Shown one piece after another: positions 16,089 through 22,027 of a stretch of DNA of 33,247 nt. Below the pieces are notes generated by a model that worked only from the letters and a program-made list of their open reading frames with translations, was not told the DNA's origin and ran no database searches. The translations under genes and the position numbers were made by a program. Within the stretch, counting starts at the first letter, position 1. Each line of letters begins with the position of its first letter. Origin of the DNA: a virus; the IMG/VR virus record IMGVR_UViG_3300045964_000102, positions 1-33,247 of that record, one strand, 5' to 3'.

Positions 16089-16463
16089 GAGGCACCCTTT
16101 GCGAATGCTGCGCTGATTCGTTTGCGCCCTGGGGAAAACTATTCGCTTTCCCGAGGCGCATCAAAGCATTGCACCCCGATCGCTGGGCATTGACCTATAT
16201 GTAGTAGGTCCGCGGCCGGACACATACAAGCCGAGCTCCTAAGCCAATGGTTTCATTGACACTAAAATAATTTGCGCAAAATACTGGCGCTAGGCTTGAC
16301 AGGCTTCGCACCCCCCCTTACGTTCGGCTTGCTTTTCGGCCCCATCGCTACGGCAACCGCCGGCGCCAATGGCTCAAGCGGGGACTTCCGACGGCACACT
16401 TTAGCGGCAAGTGCCACGCTATGGCGCACCGCTACCGGGTAGCCGCACTAATCACATGGTCAA
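16089..16463. promoter_or_regulatory. Divergent control region between small terminase and the accessory array
   Basis: No gene seen in these 375 bases. It holds a 6-7-6 inverted repeat GACCTA/TAGGTC (16192-16210) around a TATATGTAG core, a plus-strand TTGACA (16256-16261) with AATACT 18 bases on (16280-16285), a further TTGACA (16296-16301) within a lone CTTGAC half-site, and a GCTACC-g-GGTAGC repeat near 16431-16443. The natural reading is the rightward early promoter for the array and possibly a leftward promoter for terS. Confidence 0.45.
16256..16285 (+). promoter_or_regulatory. Candidate sigma-70-type promoter for the accessory array
   Basis: TTGACA (perfect -35), 18-base A-rich spacer, AATACT (4 of 6 to the -10 consensus). 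It points toward the first leader RNA at 16464. Only the hexamers are seen; use in vivo is inferred. Confidence 0.4.
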
Positions 16464-16540
16464 GAATGCAAGCCCATGCCGCGGGCAATTAAAGCGCGGC
16501 ATGTTCGAGCATTCACGCTCGGCAACCAGGAGAGAAGACC
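16464..16540 (+). promoter_or_regulatory. Structured leader RNA element a
   Basis: First of six copies. 5' strand GAATGC (16464-16469), AAGCCC, first hairpin ATGCCGCG/CGCGGCAT (16476-16483 / 16495-16502), second hairpin CGAGC/GCTCG (16506-16510 / 16517-16521), then GGCAAC, AGGAGAG and the ATG at 16541. GAATGC is exactly complementary to GCATTC (16509-16514) in and before the second loop. This copy changes the second stem from CGTGC/GCACG to CGAGC/GCTCG on both arms at once, a compensatory change. Confidence 0.8.
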
Positions 16541-16723
16541 ATGAAACTGAACAACCCATACAAGTGGACCGCAAAGGACCGCGCCGAATACGTGACCGAA
16601 GTCGAGACCGGCGAGGAAGTCTTTAGCTGCTGCCATGGCCATATCAATTGCGCGACATACCCGCACGGCCCTTGCGTTAACGAAGTCATGATTTGCATGG
16701 AAGAAAAAGGCGAAAGCGAATGA
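16541..16723 (+). CDS. Small Cys/His-rich protein (60 aa), array gene 1
   Basis: MKLNNPYKWTAKDRAEYVTE, then VETGEEVFSCCHGHINCATYPHGPCVNEVMICMEEKGESE. Five Cys and three His in 30 residues (SCCHGHINC, GPC, ICM) suggest zinc binding or redox role. No family recognised. It is the first gene of the accessory array, behind leader element a with AGGAGAG. Stop overlaps the next start as ATGA. Confidence 0.7.
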   Translation: MKLNNPYKWTAKDRAEYVTEVETGEEVFSCCHGHINCATYPHGPCVNEVMICMEEKGESE

Positions 16724-16911
16724 AAACCCCGCAAGTGCCGGCCCTGCCCGGCATGACCCCGCTCGGCATCAAGCCCTATGCCCAAATTCTGGCAGAGGCG
16801 CCGTTAAAGCCTAAGGCCAACCAGGAGGCTTGCGACGTCGGCCTATTCGGGGACGACGCAAAGCAATTGGACCTCATCGACATAAGGGCGAAGCCCGTCT
16901 CATGCCCATAA
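16720..16911 (+). CDS. Small protein (63 aa), array gene 2
   Basis: MKTPQVPALPGMTPLGIKPY, then AQILAEAPLKPKANQEACDVGLFGDDAKQLDLIDIRA. The C-terminal part GLFGDD..QLDLID resembles a short acidic peptide motif; function unknown. Starts by ATGA overlap with gene 1. Its stop codon's last base is the first base of leader element b. Confidence 0.6.
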   Translation: MKTPQVPALPGMTPLGIKPYAQILAEAPLKPKANQEACDVGLFGDDAKQLDLIDIRAKPVSCP

Positions 16912-16980
16912 GTGCAAGCCATAGAGCCCCGCGGGGCTCTATTTCGTGCACTCAAGCACGGCAACGAAAACGGAGAGACC
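16911..16980 (+). promoter_or_regulatory. Structured leader RNA element b
   Basis: 5' strand AGTGCA (16911-16916), then AGCC, first hairpin with arms ATAGAGCCC/GGGCTCTAT (within 16921-16942), second hairpin CGTGC/GCACG (16945-16949 / 16956-16960), GGCAAC, CGGAGAG and ATG at 16981. AGTGCA is exactly complementary to TGCACT (16947-16952). The stem sequence differs wholly from the other copies while pairing is kept. Confidence 0.8.
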
Positions 16981-17205
16981 ATGACAGACCTGCGCATAGC
17001 CCTGGTTATCAAAGGCACCCCAGGAGAAGCAGCCGCCGCGGCCGCAGCCCGCGGAATTCCGCTTTTATTCAAACGCGAGGCTTTGGGCGAAACCATTGGC
17101 GAAACCAGCGAAGACTACCGCGACAAGGTGGGCGCCTGGTTTGCCGAACAGCCGGCCAGCGCACCATTCCCAGCCGGGACCTTGCTGCTCTACCAGGACG
17201 CCTAA
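16981..17205 (+). CDS. Small protein (74 aa), array gene 3
   Basis: MTDLRIALVIKGTPGEAAAA, then AAARGIPLLFKREALGETIGETSEDYRDKVGAWFAEQPASAPFPAGTLLLYQ. Mixed alpha/beta character with an Ala-rich helix. The pattern V.KGTP.EA..AA..RG is seen in small phage proteins; function unknown. The start at 16981 follows CGGAGAG at the end of element b; the longer frame would run through the RNA element. Confidence 0.65.
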   Translation: MTDLRIALVIKGTPGEAAAAAAARGIPLLFKREALGETIGETSEDYRDKVGAWFAEQPASAPFPAGTLLLYQDA

Positions 17206-17216
17206 GCCATCCTCGC

Positions 17217-17288
17217 GATTGCAAGCCCAAGGCGCCGCAACACGGCGCCTTGTTCGTGCAATCCCGCACGGCAACAGGAGACTAGACC
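17217..17288 (+). promoter_or_regulatory. Structured leader RNA element c
   Basis: 5' strand GATTGCA (17217-17223), AGCCC, first hairpin AAGGCGCCG/CGGCGCCTT (17229-17237 / 17243-17251), second hairpin CGTGC/GCACG (17255-17259 / 17266-17270), GGCAAC, AGGAGA and ATG at 17289. GATTGCA is exactly complementary to TGCAATC (17257-17263), seven pairs. Confidence 0.82.
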
Positions 17289-18350
17289 ATGAAGACCGGA
17301 TTAAGCCTTTCAGAATTGGCCGCCAAGATCGAAGGCAATAAAGCCCTGAAACAGGATTTTATTGCAGACACCGCGGCGACCACGATGCAAGTGCAAGCCG
17401 ATAAAACGATCGTGCTTGAAATCCCGCAGCCTGGGACCGCTATCCCGAATAGCTTTCCCATCCTGCCAATCGCGCACGATCAAATCGGCGCACGGCTGAA
17501 CATTCCGGCCAAATACTACGACCGGATGCAGGCCGAGGCGCCCGATTTGCTGGCGACAAACGTAAATGCTTGGTTCCGCAAGAACCCCGAAAAGCGGATG
17601 ATAAGAACGCTCGGCGGCGACGCCCGCGCCTTCCTGTCAAACCGCTACAATCGCATCGAAAACGAGGAAATTGCAGAGGTTGTTTTGCCAATCCTGGCAG
17701 ACATCCCCGGCGTTCGAATCCTTTCGAGCGAAATCACGGACCGGCGAATGTATATCCAAGCCCTGACCCCGCGCACCGAAGGCGAGGTAAAAAAGGGCGA
17801 CGTCGTACAGGCCGGAGTCGTGATCTCCAACTCAGAGACCGGACACGGCGCCGTCAGCATTTCCCCGCTGGTTTATCGCCTGGTCTGCCTCAATGGCATG
17901 ATCGCCAACGATGGACGCCTGCGGGCAAACCACGTCGGCGGCCGTATCGAGGAGACGGAAGCGCTCTACCAGGACGACACCAGGAAAGCGGACGACCGGG
18001 CAATCTTGCTCAAGGTCCGCGACCACGTCCGCAATGCGGTCGACTCGGTGGCGTTTGCTGCCCGCGTCGAAGCCATGGCCGGCCTTGTGCGCCAGCCGAT
18101 CGCCGGCGATCCGGTGGCGGCCGTCGAAGTGCTGGCCAAAAAAGTCGGCGCCACCGACGGCGAGCGGGGCGGGATCCTGCGCTCGCTGATCGAGGGCGGC
18201 GACCTGTCCGCCTGGGGATTGCTGAACGCAGTCACCGCGCAAGCCCACGCGGCGCCCGACTATGACCGCTCAATCGATTTTGAGCGCATGGGCGGCGCCT
18301 TGCTTGAGCTCCCCCGCAACGAATGGACGCGAGTCCTTGAGGCGGCCTAA
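17289..18350 (+). CDS. DUF932 family phage/plasmid-like protein, 353 aa (array gene 4)
   Basis: A full-length DUF932 protein (PF06067; TIGR03299-like). Visible features: PILPIAHDQIGARLNIPAKYYDRM, the R.LGG.ARAFLSNRYNRIENEEI segment (residues about 106-128), GVVISNSETGHGAVSISPLVYRLVCLNGMI (about 176-206), then R...H.GGR and a C-terminal helical part with an ..RN.WT.VLE.A end. The family is widespread in phages and plasmids, often near recombination or early genes, and its biochemical role is not established. It stands behind leader element c with AGGAGA. It is the largest gene of the array. Confidence 0.88.
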   Translation: MKTGLSLSELAAKIEGNKALKQDFIADTAATTMQVQADKTIVLEIPQPGTAIPNSFPILPIAHDQIGARLNIPAKYYDRMQAEAPDLLATNVNAWFRKNPEKRMIRTLGGDARAFLSNRYNRIENEEIAEVVLPILADIPGVRILSSEITDRRMYIQALTPRTEGEVKKGDVVQAGVVISNSETGHGAVSISPLVYRLVCLNGMIANDGRLRANHVGGRIEETEALYQDDTRKADDRAILLKVRDHVRNAVDSVAFAARVEAMAGLVRQPIAGDPVAAVEVLAKKVGATDGERGGILRSLIEGGDLSAWGLLNAVTAQAHAAPDYDRSIDFERMGGALLELPRNEWTRVLEAA

Positions 18351-18351
18351 C

Positions 18352-18427
18352 GATGCAAGCCCAGGCGGCCGGCTTCACAAGCCGGCCGCCTGATCGTGCA
18401 CCGCACGGCAACAGAGGAGAAAGAACG
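18352..18427 (+). promoter_or_regulatory. Structured leader RNA element d
   Basis: First hairpin has a 14-base stem CAGGCGGCCGGCTT/AAGCCGGCCGCCTG (18362-18375 / 18379-18392); second hairpin CGTGC/GCACG with a 3-base loop (18395-18399 / 18403-18407); GGCAAC, GAGGAGA, ATG at 18428. The 5' strand GATGCA (18352-18357) pairs with TGCA-CC at only four to five positions, making it the weakest copy for the long-range pairing. Confidence 0.75.
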
Positions 18428-18580
18428 ATGTCCGACCATGATGCAATGCTCGCCATCCAAGAATGCTTGGACGGCACCGAATGGAATTCGAACACGCTTG
18501 AGGAGGTTGCGGCGATCATGACCGCGGCCGGCTACAAAATCCGCGACCTCGACGACGTCGAACGCGAGGCCACACCATGA
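18428..18580 (+). CDS. Small acidic protein (50 aa), array gene 5
   Basis: MSDHDAMLAIQECLDGTEWN, then SNTLEEVAAIMTAAGYKIRDLDD. Short alpha-helical protein of the type (A..I.E.LDG.EW...TLE.IA.I...AGY.I.D.D) that recurs in Rhizobiales phages and plasmids; role unknown. GAGGAGA precedes the ATG at 18428. Stop overlaps the next start (ATGA). Confidence 0.65.
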   Translation: MSDHDAMLAIQECLDGTEWNSNTLEEVAAIMTAAGYKIRDLDDVEREATP

Positions 18581-18831
18581 ACCCGCTAACAATCGGAGCG
18601 CTCATGCTGGCCGGCTTTGCGTTCCTAACCTGGGCAACCGCGCCGGCAAAATACGGCGCCGAGCCGCGGCTAACACCGAATGCCGAAGACTCTGACTTTT
18701 GCATGCCGGCCGAAGTCACAGGCGGAGCCGCGATCGCCTACCACTGCCACGCCGGCGAGATCGGTTGCAAAACGCACCCCGTAACGGATTGCGAGGCCGA
18801 CGATCGCGACGACTTTGCAGAAGATGATTAG
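18577..18831 (+). CDS. Membrane-anchored small protein (84 aa), array gene 6
   Basis: N-terminal span MNPLTIGALMLAGFAFLTWA, then an exported or cytoplasmic acidic part with four Cys (FCMPAEV, YHCHAGEIGCKTH, TDCEAD). The Cys/His content suggests metal or disulfide. Coupled to gene 5 by ATGA. Function unknown. Confidence 0.6.
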   Translation: MNPLTIGALMLAGFAFLTWATAPAKYGAEPRLTPNAEDSDFCMPAEVTGGAAIAYHCHAGEIGCKTHPVTDCEADDRDDFAEDD

Positions 18832-18906
18832 TGCAAGCCCAAGGCGCTGCGGACCCCGCGGCGCTTTGTTCGTGCACTTTCGCACGGCAACAGAGGAGAT
18901 AAGACC
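18830..18906 (+). promoter_or_regulatory. Structured leader RNA element e
   Basis: 5' strand AGTGCA (18830-18835) overlaps the preceding TAG stop; AAGCCC; first hairpin AAGGCGCTGCGG/CCGCGGCGCTTT (18841-18852 / 18856-18867) pairs at all 12 positions with two G-U; second hairpin CGTGC/GCACG (18871-18875 / 18882-18886); GGCAAC; GAGGAGA; ATG at 18907. AGTGCA complements TGCACT (18873-18878) exactly. Confidence 0.82.
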
Positions 18907-19410
18907 ATGAGCACCTTTATTGAGCCGGCCGAGATCCTGGCCGGCCACGTCTCACCGGAGACCGCGTACGTTGTCGCGGATTACCCGTATGGCTATACGC
19001 TGCGCTGCAAAATCCGCTATTGGCTGGAATTCAAATCGGGCAAGGGAGTCCGATTCTGGTCGCAAACGACAAACCCCAAGCGACCCGGCGAAGTCTGGAA
19101 CAAGCCGAAGTCTTCCACTTACTGCCGTTTCGGCGGCGCCATGTACCTGGACGAAAACGGCCACTGCAAATGGAGCGGACTCACCGAATACAGCACGGCC
19201 GCCGAGGCGCAAGCCTGGGCGAGCAAATGGCGCGAAGGCGTCCCACCGGAAGCCCTGCCCGACCTTGACCGCTGGATTGCGGGCAAGGTTGCGTATGAGC
19301 AAGCCCGCGCCAAGGCGGCCGGCGAGGAGCCCACCCATACCCTGCCGCTCGCCGTCGGCCTGGTCGAGGCTCACCAGGCGATGGCCGCGGCCGACAAGAC
19401 CGAGAAATAG
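18907..19410 (+). CDS. Conserved phage protein (167 aa), array gene 7
   Basis: Visible signature: YGYTLRCKIRYWLEFKSGKG, RFWSQTTNPKR.GEVWNKPKSSTYC......MYLDENGHCKW.GL..Y. I recognise the TLR..IR.W.E....G.R...QT.NPK....WNKPK.STY pattern as a widespread phage or conjugative-element protein of unknown role. The C-terminal 50 residues are Ala/Glu-rich helix. Behind leader element e with GAGGAGA. A nucleic-acid or host-target role cannot be told. Confidence 0.75.
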   Translation: MSTFIEPAEILAGHVSPETAYVVADYPYGYTLRCKIRYWLEFKSGKGVRFWSQTTNPKRPGEVWNKPKSSTYCRFGGAMYLDENGHCKWSGLTEYSTAAEAQAWASKWREGVPPEALPDLDRWIAGKVAYEQARAKAAGEEPTHTLPLAVGLVEAHQAMAAADKTEK

Positions 19411-19490
19411 CGCAAGCCCAGGCGGCCGGCTTTTTGGAGCTCGGCCGCCTGATCGTGCGCTTAAGCACGGCAACGAAAGGAGCGAAGACC
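19409..19490 (+). promoter_or_regulatory. Structured leader RNA element f
   Basis: 5' strand AGCGCA (19409-19414) overlaps the preceding TAG; AGCCC; first hairpin CAGGCGGCCG/CGGCCGCCTG (19419-19428 / 19442-19451); second hairpin CGTGC/GCACG (19454-19458 / 19465-19469); GGCAAC; AAAGGAG; ATG at 19491. AGCGCA complements TGCGCT (19456-19461) exactly: both strands changed relative to AGTGCA/TGCACT of copies b and e. Confidence 0.82.
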
Positions 19491-19727
19491 ATGCCTATTG
19501 ATTGGGACGACCCGGCCGCCCGCGGCCGGTTGATCGAAAGAGTCGGCGCCGAGGAATACAGCCGACTCCTTGCAATCCACTTCAAGCAAAGCACCCTTGC
19601 GACCATCAACGGCCACGCAATTCGGCCGGTTATGTCGCGCTTCGGGCGCCTGTTTTCGGTGGGAAACACTAACCGCGCTTTTGCCACCCTGGGCGAGGCG
19701 GCCGCCTTTGCGAGGGCAACGCCATGA
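19491..19727 (+). CDS. Small protein (78 aa), array gene 8
   Basis: MPIDWDDPAARGRLIERVGA, then EEYSRLLAIHFKQSTLATINGHAIRPVMSRFGRLFSVGNTNRAFATLGEAAAFA. The pattern DW.D..ARG.LIERVG...Y......H.....V...NGH.I..V..RFGRLF.V..T..AF.TL.EA..FA recurs in Rhizobiales phages and prophages. Compact alpha/beta; function unknown. AAAGGAG precedes the start at the end of element f. Stop overlaps the next start (ATGA). Confidence 0.7.
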   Translation: MPIDWDDPAARGRLIERVGAEEYSRLLAIHFKQSTLATINGHAIRPVMSRFGRLFSVGNTNRAFATLGEAAAFARATP

Positions 19728-20052: not shown

Positions 20053-20120
20053 CCGGCCGCGAGCGATCGCGGCCGGCCACTCCCCCGCCCGCCCGGCACC
20101 CGCCGCGGCGGGCTTTTTTT
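20053..20120 (+). terminator. Terminator closing the accessory array
   Basis: Two hairpins: CCGGCCGCG/CGCGGCCGG (20053-20061 / 20068-20076) and CCCGC-cgcg-GCGGG (20099-20112), the latter followed one base later by seven T (20114-20120). The second is a standard intrinsic terminator for rightward transcription. Confidence 0.8.
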
Positions 20121-20737: not shown

Positions 20738-21307
20738 TCAAGCGGTTGCGAGACGACCGCGGGTAAAGAACGCCCGGATCTTTTCGCGATTGCTTACACC
20801 GAACAGCGCAGCCAAGCCGCTGAGAAACAGCCACACGGCGGCAGGCAGCGGCACCGGCGGCGGGACGGTGGCAAGGTTGCCGCCGTAGCCGGACGTGCCG
20901 TTGGCAAAGCCCGCTATGTTGAGGAAGTAATCCCCCGCAAGCAGGAAAGCCGAGCCGGCCATACCCTGACAATTCGGGATGGGTCCGCAGCCGAGTACGG
21001 CAAGGACCGGCCCGATGACGGTTGCGCCAGGAATTGCCGGCGTTCCCGCAATCACCGACGCATTAAAGCCGGTGATGAAGTCAGAGGCTTGCGCAAAGAC
21101 GTTGGTCACGGACGCGATGGTCAGTGTCGCGTTTTGCGTCAGGTGGAAGGTGTATTGATCCGAAAACGCGCCGACGAGTGCGCCCAACGAGTGATTGAAG
21201 GCACCAGCCGCCGATGTCGGATCATCACCGAAGCTAGTGATGGTTGCCGCCTTGAGTGGCGTTGCAAGCGCCACCAATGCAGCAATAGCAAAGACAACTC
21301 TCCTCAT
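20738..21307 (-). CDS. Secreted protein with VPLPA-CTERM-type sorting signal, 189 aa
   Basis: N-terminal signal peptide MRRVVFAIAALVALATPLKA with cleavage likely after AKA-like LKA (residue 20). The mature body is Gly/Ala/Asn-rich and beta-like (FNHSLGALVGAFSDQYTFHL, ASVTNVFAQASDFITGFNAS) with two Cys. The C-terminus has the tripartite PEP-CTERM arrangement: VPLPAAVWLFLSGLAALFGV, then a basic end (NREKIRAFFTRGR). Such proteins are exported and processed by exosortases. This is the second gene of a pair with the same organisation, AAGGACC precedes the ATG, and a strong terminator follows. A phage-borne exosortase substrate is unusual. Confidence 0.8.
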   Translation of the reverse strand: MRRVVFAIAALVALATPLKAATITSFGDDPTSAAGAFNHSLGALVGAFSDQYTFHLTQNATLTIASVTNVFAQASDFITGFNASVIAGTPAIPGATVIGPVLAVLGCGPIPNCQGMAGSAFLLAGDYFLNIAGFANGTSGYGGNLATVPPPVPLPAAVWLFLSGLAALFGVSNREKIRAFFTRGRLATA

Positions 21308-21322
21308 GAGAAGGTCCTTTCG

Positions 21323-22027
21323 TTATGCCCGCTGAGATCGTCCCGCATCGGGCGACGGGTCGTTGTTTTTGCGGCGTCTGTTCAGCAGGTACAAACCAAC
21401 GAGACCTGTGCCGAACAACCAAACGGCGCCCGGAATTGGCACTTCCGGAACACTGAAAGGCGTGGGACCGCCGCTAAGATCGACAAAGCCAGTGCGGCCA
21501 TTCGTGCCGCTCAAAATGTCGAGCACCATGAACGCCAAGGTATCCCCCGGCGGAGTGGTTGACAGTTCAGCGAAGCTCGCCAGCGTGAGACCGGCGCCGC
21601 TGATTGAGAACGACGCAGAGGTGGGACCATTGCCCCCGCTCCATGTCCCCTCGATGCCGTATTCAAAGTTGCCGAAGCCATCGGCGGCAAGAACCCCGGC
21701 GTTTTGCTGGTTGACCGGGATCACACCGGGAATCGAGAACGATGCCGATAGGCCGGAGTAGGTGATCGTTGGATTGCCGACCAGGTTGAAACCAAAGACG
21801 ACGTCCTGCCCGCCATTGGCAAAATTGTTGCCATTGAGAAAGGCGATCGCAATATCGATGGTGCCATTTTCATGATCGGTTGCGGTGATGGTGGCAAAGC
21901 CGTTGGCTTGCGGGCCGCACAGATTGGTACAGTGATCGGAGAAAAAAGTGCCCGTCGCGACCGTGACACCCTTGGCCGGCAGCGTTGTGGCGGCGAGCAG
22001 CGCCGCGAGCAGCAGGATTTTTCGCAT
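21323..22027 (-). CDS. Secreted protein with PEP-CTERM-type sorting signal, 234 aa
   Basis: Signal peptide MRKILLLAALLAATTLPAKG; a mature beta-rich body (NGFATITATDHENGTIDIAI, GGQDVVFGFNLVGNPTITYS, GPTSASFSISGAGLTLASFA) of the kind common in PEP-CTERM proteins; and a C-terminal VPEVPIPGAVWLFGTGLVGL followed by YLLNRRRK, i.e. the VPxPxA-like motif, hydrophobic span and basic cluster. AAAGGAGGCCCC gives an excellent ribosome-binding site. It leads a two-gene unit with the similar protein at 20738. Upstream is the operator-like palindrome 22051-22068. Role in envelope or extracellular matrix is inferred. Confidence 0.82.
   Translation of the reverse strand: MRKILLLAALLAATTLPAKGVTVATGTFFSDHCTNLCGPQANGFATITATDHENGTIDIAIAFLNGNNFANGGQDVVFGFNLVGNPTITYSGLSASFSIPGVIPVNQQNAGVLAADGFGNFEYGIEGTWSGGNGPTSASFSISGAGLTLASFAELSTTPPGDTLAFMVLDILSGTNGRTGFVDLSGGPTPFSVPEVPIPGAVWLFGTGLVGLYLLNRRRKNNDPSPDAGRSQRA

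Follow-up and report, generated by a model that had tools for sequence, protein, structure and literature searches.

What is an RNA element for that recurs before gene after gene of a single phage operon? The window analysed here, IMG/VR virus record IMGVR_UViG_3300045964_000102 over its whole stretch of 33,247 bases, contains a rightward operon of nine genes with an array of six such leaders. Comparison with other records shows these leaders to be members of a family of phage intergenic RNAs that recurs in many other uncultured phages in different letters, and to be built of three covarying helices, two of which are predicted to compete for one strand. We infer that the leader is a cis-acting gene-boundary element that uses general host machinery. 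We tentatively interpret it as a processing hairpin of the RNase III type that would refold into a smaller hairpin, with a probability of about 0.4.

From 5' to 3', the leader consists of strand A, AGCC, a hairpin (P1), strand B, a loop and strand C, followed by a Shine-Dalgarno sequence (SD). Strand B, which is the 5' arm of a short hairpin (P2) plus its loop, has an upstream partner in A and a downstream partner in C. B and C form P2; A and B form a helix (P3), which together with P1 makes one long imperfect hairpin. An initial annotation of this DNA had described six such leaders, each before the SD and ATG of a gene, and we confirmed all six, on the + strand. Leader a (16464..16526; strand A GAATGC 16464-16469, AAGCC, P1 16475-16503, P2 CGAGC/GCTCG 16506-16521, GCAAC) precedes the first gene of the operon, which starts at 16541 and encodes 60 amino acids (aa). 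Leader b (16911..16965; strand A AGTGCA 16911-16916, P1 16921-16942, P2 16945-16960) stands before the gene at 16981, leader c (17217..17275; strand A GATTGCA 17217-17223, P1 17228-17252, P2 17255-17270 with the loop AATCCC) before a DUF932/phrog_1362 gene (17289..18350, +), and leader d (18351..18412; P1 18362-18392 with 14 pairs, P2 18395-18407 with a loop of 3 nucleotides (nt)), which has the weakest strand A of the six (CGATGCA), before the gene at 18428. Leader e (18830..18891; strand A AGTGCA 18830-18835, P1 18840-18868, P2 18871-18886) precedes gene 7 (18907..19410, +; 167 aa), whose relatives led to the leader family, and leader f (19409..19474; strand A AGCGCA 19409-19414, P1 19419-19451, P2 19454-19469) precedes the gene at 19491. 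As annotated, the P1 sequence varies between copies and is paired in all six, and the arms of P2 read CGTGC/GCACG except in copy a, which has CGAGC/GCTCG. Pairing of strand A extends over the P2 loop and arm in copies a, b, c, e and f and amounts to four contiguous pairs in d. The complementarity of strand A to part of the P2 5' arm, besides the loop, goes beyond the annotation.

The operon has eight gene boundaries. A leader occupies each of the five at which the genes do not overlap, the sixth leader standing before the first gene; the three boundaries with ATGA overlaps (at 16720, 18577 and 19724) have none. The leaders sit between an upstream stop codon and the next SD. The stop overlaps strand A in three copies, the number annotated, namely b (TAA 16909-16911), e (TAG 18829-18831) and f (TAG 19408-19410); it lies just upstream of strand A in copy d and about 12 nt upstream in copy c. 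Copy a is the exception, being first in the operon with no upstream stop and no clear gene upstream on its own strand, and it still keeps the A:B pairing.

A family of covarying phage leaders

Relatives of the window leaders were reached by several routes. A pattern built on P2 and the SD matched 21 stretches and led to a locus (L022) whose record (G001) holds two adjacent leaders. A looser pattern found another (L185, in record G008), in which TAGGCA pairs with TGCCTA, a strand outside the pattern; in the looser scans, the best 30 matches by P1 length out of at least 242 were inspected, and L185 was the sole leader-like one among these. Relatives of gene 7 occur at 42 loci. Two of these are identical to the window, and leaders of the same plan stand at no fewer than six of the 40 others (L426, L419, L418, L420, L421 and L411, the last being cut off at its end; the search with model R2, below, covered part of the 40). 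Model R1, made from the six window elements and the two of G001, found L426 at E 7.4e-5. From L426 and L418 we derived a pattern for IMG/VR in which GCAGCCCATG, CATG and the P2 arms CGGC/GCCG were fixed, the loop was free and strand A was free save for its last GC. This pattern gave 61 matches in 44 stretches, 45 of them unique. A P1 of at least six pairs was present in 42 of the 45, and removal of one (L476) by hand left 41 usable elements, of which 39 are new and two are the pattern's own models (L465, a copy of L426, and L504, which equals L418).

Model R2 was built from these 41 elements of other phages and contains no window sequence. In 523,302 bases it found window copies a (E 9.8e-7) and c (E 9.9e-6); no match up to E 2 fell on copies b, d, e or f. 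Run on 446,103 bases from 44 other loci, it gave two matches at E of about 0.02 and none below 0.01. The match to copies a and c thus places the window leaders in the family beyond chance. A leader of record G021, with P2 CGGTGC/GCACCG and the loop AATCCC, bridges the window form and the CGGC form. At E <=0.01, R2 matched records G019, G020 and G021 17, 16 and 14 times, some of these matches being antisense or weak, and some phages hold about a dozen leader copies.

Pairing is kept across this family while the letters change. Among the 45 unique matches, the first four loop bases are Watson-Crick paired with strand A in 82% of cases; 2000 shuffles averaged 56% and never exceeded 66%. P3, which lay outside the search pattern, is paired in 92.7% of cells over the 41 elements, with double changes in all four of its pairs; 30 elements form all four pairs, 10 form three and one forms two. 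When one element per contig was retained and both models were removed (n=28), 92.0% of cells were paired compared with 74.7% after shuffling, where the maximum among 2000 shuffles was 83.9%. For P1 the paired fraction of cells is 98.4%, and each of the five pairs that lay outside the pattern shows double changes (41 elements). The covariation score of the whole structure, 0.440 compared with 0.124 shuffled (41 elements), was reached by none of 500 shuffles, and sliding the partners by one to three columns lowered it to 0.03-0.14.

A scan of ten leader records that was blind to P3, and that took intergenic P1 and P2 before an SD and ATG near an upstream stop, yielded 43 places. Their mean P3 score is 6.05 compared with 4.43 shuffled (maximum of 500 shuffles, 5.01), and 31 of the 43 score at least 6; most of the places are of the known kind and a few are not, and several of the records were originally located through P3. 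The initial annotation had proposed a structured, covarying leader before all cassettes, and named a lack of significant covariation after the addition of homologues as grounds for rejecting it; with the homologues added, the covariation held and the proposal was upheld.

Several candidates were set aside. Patterns of the window type returned the same phage (100% identical contigs) and matches judged by eye to be non-leaders, some of which we take to be portal genes. L020 and L164 look leader-like and have an unpaired strand A, and were not counted. An R2 match in Reyranella (E 2.9e-5) lies inside coding sequence by eye and was dropped. The DUF932 relatives L014-L016 (48-60% identity) have no upstream leader by eye and no R2 match, and when two leaders were compared with isolated phages by blastn, the matches were short only, at E 1 or worse. 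In the plasmid searches, the whole array and DUF932 were the only queries.

Some further observations were made, mostly by eye. Genes starting M..TLRPGLLVSLKTSVTGNV.. follow leaders in three phages (L185 at 3698, L516 at 8860 in G019, and L477, with the leader at 2145), and a DUF932-like gene lies behind a leader in L474. The leaders may travel with certain genes. Upstream of the gene 7 relatives in L408, L412, L417 and L421 there appears to be a second leader class, consisting of a P1 hairpin, TTRAGGC..TARAGGCAT, a small hairpin and AAGGG, and similar elements precede several L421 genes. L420:4890-4970 contains a third hairpin, CCGGCG-TTGTAG-CGCCGG, whose loop and arm complement CTACAACG (8 bases) at the end of the preceding gene.

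Competing folds and position relative to genes

Strands A and C share a short word, and B complements both (GC/GCCG, GCA/GCACG, GCT/GCTCG, CC/CCCG and GAC/GACG). Changes in the arm are tracked by A and C, as in CGGC-GC, CGTGC-GCA, CGAGC-GCT (G021), CGGG-CC, CGTC-GAC and GCTGC-GCAGC. Strand A reaches at least two P2 arm bases in 74 of 79 elements, an approximate count because P2 was mis-picked in a few rows (for example, L471-1179 and L500-3374). Since A matches the P2 arm as well, P3 and P2 are predicted to compete. The arm, energy and position counts were made after removal of three of the 67 listed rows (L475 at 861, L482 at 6978 and L502 at 11950), and these counts and those of SD openness include one element twice (L418 and L504). 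When P3 and P2 were each forced, the predicted folds differed by a mean of 1.3 kcal/mol (standard deviation 3.7), with 46 of 78 elements within 3 kcal/mol; P3 was lower in 44 and P2 in 26. The ensemble probability was 0.28 for P2 and 0.58 for P3, and blocking strand A raised P2 to 0.85 (76 elements).

P2 is not found in every member. A viral scan on A and B only, with A fixed as TGATTGCAGC and B as CGGCAATC, gave 100 unique matches in 104 stretches: 46 with P1 (at least seven pairs) and GCCG, 13 with P1 alone, 4 with GCCG alone and 37 with neither. In a recount of 96 unique matches, 58 had P1, and of these 45 had GCCG, 6 had GCC and 7 had neither within 8 bases. Where CGGCAATC has no A upstream, GCCG follows in 18 of 145. 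The frequency of GCCG after A and B indicates that P2 is favoured but not universal. Among the six leaders of L561 (IMGVR_UViG_3300044977_000070), two have GCCG, one has GCCA and three have no P2 3' arm; the last three keep A:B and P1, with the SD a few bases past B. Because some members have no C, A:B with P1 looks like the core of the element. The L561 array amounts to a natural experiment on whether P2 matters.

An SD and the start of an open reading frame (ORF) of at least 30 aa lie within 75 bases of 78 of 82 leaders, compared with 30% of random positions. The stop of an upstream open frame lies within -25..+11 of strand A in 74 of 82, compared with 26% at random, and its position relative to strand A peaks at 0/+1. 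Even among the 64 leaders listed without a start or stop criterion, 60 stand before an SD and start and 56 at an upstream stop. The distance from leader to start has two peaks, at about 12-23 and 30-43; some of the long-distance leaders seem, by eye, to hold a further small hairpin. Behind 12 of 13 leaders in G019 and 10 of 11 in G021 there is an SD with the start of an ORF. These two records offer 22 intervals between leaders. In 8 of them the ORF behind the first leader runs into the second and stops there, and in the remaining intervals it ends earlier or the interval holds more.

Candidate roles of the leader

The reading that we favour, as stated at the outset, is that of an RNase III-type processing hairpin that would refold into P2. 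The long hairpin of A:B and P1 would be cleaved by a double-strand RNase akin to RNase III, as happens at RNase III sites in T7 mRNA. With A cut away, B would refold with C into P2, a hairpin that would then stand where the downstream mRNA now begins, immediately ahead of the SD, and each gene or gene pair would gain its own stable, translatable message. A ribosome ending the upstream gene would cover A and move the balance toward P2. Processing of this kind would explain the greater constancy of the long hairpin, and why P2 is common yet dispensable. It would also account for the presence of copy a at the operon start, and for the sharing of the leader among unrelated phages without a common protein.

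On the question of a partner protein, the widest BLAST clusters (E 1e-6) reach six of the ten leader records (3,627 ORFs of at least 50 aa), and the two six-record clusters are gene 7, the route by which the records were found, and its antisense frame. As some of the records are fragments and diverged or short proteins would be overlooked, this is weak evidence for host machinery. The exact leader pattern is absent from all 385 genomes scanned in the class to which G015, a Reyranella metagenome-assembled genome, belongs. The best 12 of 484 phage records with a terminase similar to that of the window, at 40-45% identity, are Limnohabitans, Acidovorax, Bordetella and Caulobacter phages and one unassigned phage.

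Several points weigh against the processing reading and the structure on which it is built. The cleavage, and the transcript ends that it would leave, are predictions from sequence. The predicted mean SD openness is nearly equal in the two folds (P2, 0.61; P3, 0.56; 76 elements) and so gives no support for simple SD masking or an effect on translation, and the fold energies, computed with ViennaRNA, cover pseudoknot-free structures only. The number of pairs with a double change, 9 compared with 7.0 shuffled, was matched by 25 of 500 shuffles; it is one of five measures on the 41 elements, and these shuffles ignore relatedness. Raw descriptor counts exceeded the reversed control modestly (136/96, 138/101 and 50/22), and the loose descriptors, being near the control level, were used solely to suggest cases. 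The identity among A, B and C is partly biased: in the search pattern both P2 arms and the closing GC of A were set in advance, and the descriptor matches were chosen for P3. Unbiased cases with other arms are few (the window, the second copy of L163, L185 near 3579 and the G021 variants), and copy a is an exception to the tracking, with the arm CGAGC and GCA in A (an A.A mismatch).

A rather unlikely alternative is a coupling switch that senses the ribosome and involves no cleavage. A ribosome at the upstream stop would cover A and permit P2, the A:B hairpin would form otherwise, and the two states would give different initiation at the next gene. Ribosome sensing explains the stop codon in strand A, including the peak at 0/+1 among the 74 of 82 leaders with a nearby stop. 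It also agrees with the rise of P2 from 0.28 to 0.85 when A is occluded, and with the predicted SD openness, which P2 favours by more than 0.1 in 26 of 76 elements and P3 in 9. On the other hand, mean SD openness barely differs between the states, copy a heads its operon, and some leaders have no C.

The initial annotation had left a choice between a pseudoknot and two mutually exclusive folds. The competing folds fit better, because A matches the arm, some loops have only 3 nt (copy d, and L185 near 3579) and some members have no P2 3' arm; the static pseudoknot gave way as the general structure, though possible in long-loop members. An H-type pseudoknot, in which P2 and the loop-to-A pairs coexist, might serve as a common operator bound by a host or phage protein or by a ligand, and we consider this unlikely. 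The loop-to-A pairs covary as it predicts, and one to three loop bases remain as a bridge in many long-loop members. However, P3 would use up the 3-nt loops, and neither the match of A to the P2 arm nor the leaders without C suit it. The BLAST comparison above gave no protein cluster in all leader records, a host or diverged protein being possible.

It is quite improbable that the leaders act as DNA, that is, as boundary repeats or attC-like sites at which homologous or site-specific recombination swaps gene cassettes. Such a role would suit the presence of a single element for each cassette, the likeness of the copies inside a phage and the unrelated genes behind them. The placement on the coding strand just before the SD does not, and P1 changes its letters with pairing kept, which homologous recombination does not need. 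Integron attC sites have the core boxes RYYYAAC and GTTRRRY, and neither is present in any of the six leaders, no integrase search having been made. A transcription element, either a put-like antitermination RNA or a weak terminator at each boundary, is very improbable, for all that two adjacent intergenic hairpins recall the put sites of HK022, since no terminator-like site (a stem and then a T-run) exists on the + strand at any leader and the leaders recur at many boundaries.

Taken at their widest, the findings might point to a new organisation of phage operons. An evolving three-strand RNA switch at most non-overlapping boundaries would read upstream translation through the stop inside A, set the processing or initiation of the next gene, and spread among unrelated phages without a phage-encoded partner. 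We regard this picture as speculative and rather unlikely. The leaders would constitute a family of RNAs to which Rfam 15 offers no match. The family covaries strongly and recurs in many uncultured phages, some of which carry about a dozen copies. The leaders open a way to study how long accessory operons with unrelated genes are operated by phages, and they make the regulation of gene boundaries themselves testable. If the processing model is true, they would be natural compact insulators for use between the genes of synthetic operons.

The operon and known elements

The nine operon genes look unrelated to one another: one belongs to DUF932/phrog_1362, one to phrog_15104, and seven have no family above the cut-off, gene 7 having neither a Pfam family above cutoff nor a PHROG. 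Upstream of leader a lies a promoter-like TTGACA-18-AATACT (16256..16285, +), the one such match found where about one is expected by chance, and at the operon end a terminator-like stem is followed by CTTTTTTT (20099..20112, +); both are consensus matches only. Elsewhere in the window (20738-22027, -), the translations of two proteins show C-terminal segments like PVPLPAAVWLF.. and VPIPGAVWLF.., which we take to resemble VPLPA/PEP-CTERM sorting signals and to be a possible host clue.

We compared the leaders with known RNAs and repeats. Rfam 15 families are likewise structured cis RNAs with covariation, and the annotation's impression that no Rfam family fits was borne out: cmscan gave no match at the gathering score in the whole window or in five leader-bearing loci. 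Under permissive settings the window array had nine weak matches, the best at E 0.076, and part of L502 had none at E 1 or better. The literature searched, with narrow terms, names no such element. The 13-bp SAS sequence described below has no counterpart in the window within two mismatches, and none of its eight matches with three mismatches each lies at a leader.

The put RNA of HK022 likewise has two hairpins in a phage transcript. The put sites, found where early operons start, exert their effect on RNA polymerase; the leaders stand at many gene boundaries. T7 RNase III sites lie between genes. As described in part of one source, the site R1.1 in T7 mRNA has a 49-nt stem, and the leaders resemble it as imperfect hairpins in a phage multigene transcript (PMC8708148). 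Leader f is predicted to form 6 + 1 + 14 pairs in the fold with P3 forced, a long imperfect hairpin of the T7 type. A competing downstream hairpin, as in the leaders, does not appear in the T7 site descriptions in that part of the source (PMC8708148). In arrangement the leaders are also like the Start-Associated Sequences (SAS) and extended SAS (ESAS) of Cluster K mycobacteriophages. In the portion of the source used here, SAS consists of 13 conserved bp (GGGATAGGAGCCC) next to the start codon, and ESAS is a 17-bp imperfect inverted repeat with a variable spacer and a consensus for each subcluster; both occur in many copies per phage, immediately upstream of the starts of various non-structural genes (PMC3203893). 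Unlike these elements as described there, the leaders have little fixed sequence, three strands and two competing helices; like them, they stand in many copies upstream of the start codons of various phage genes (PMC3203893).

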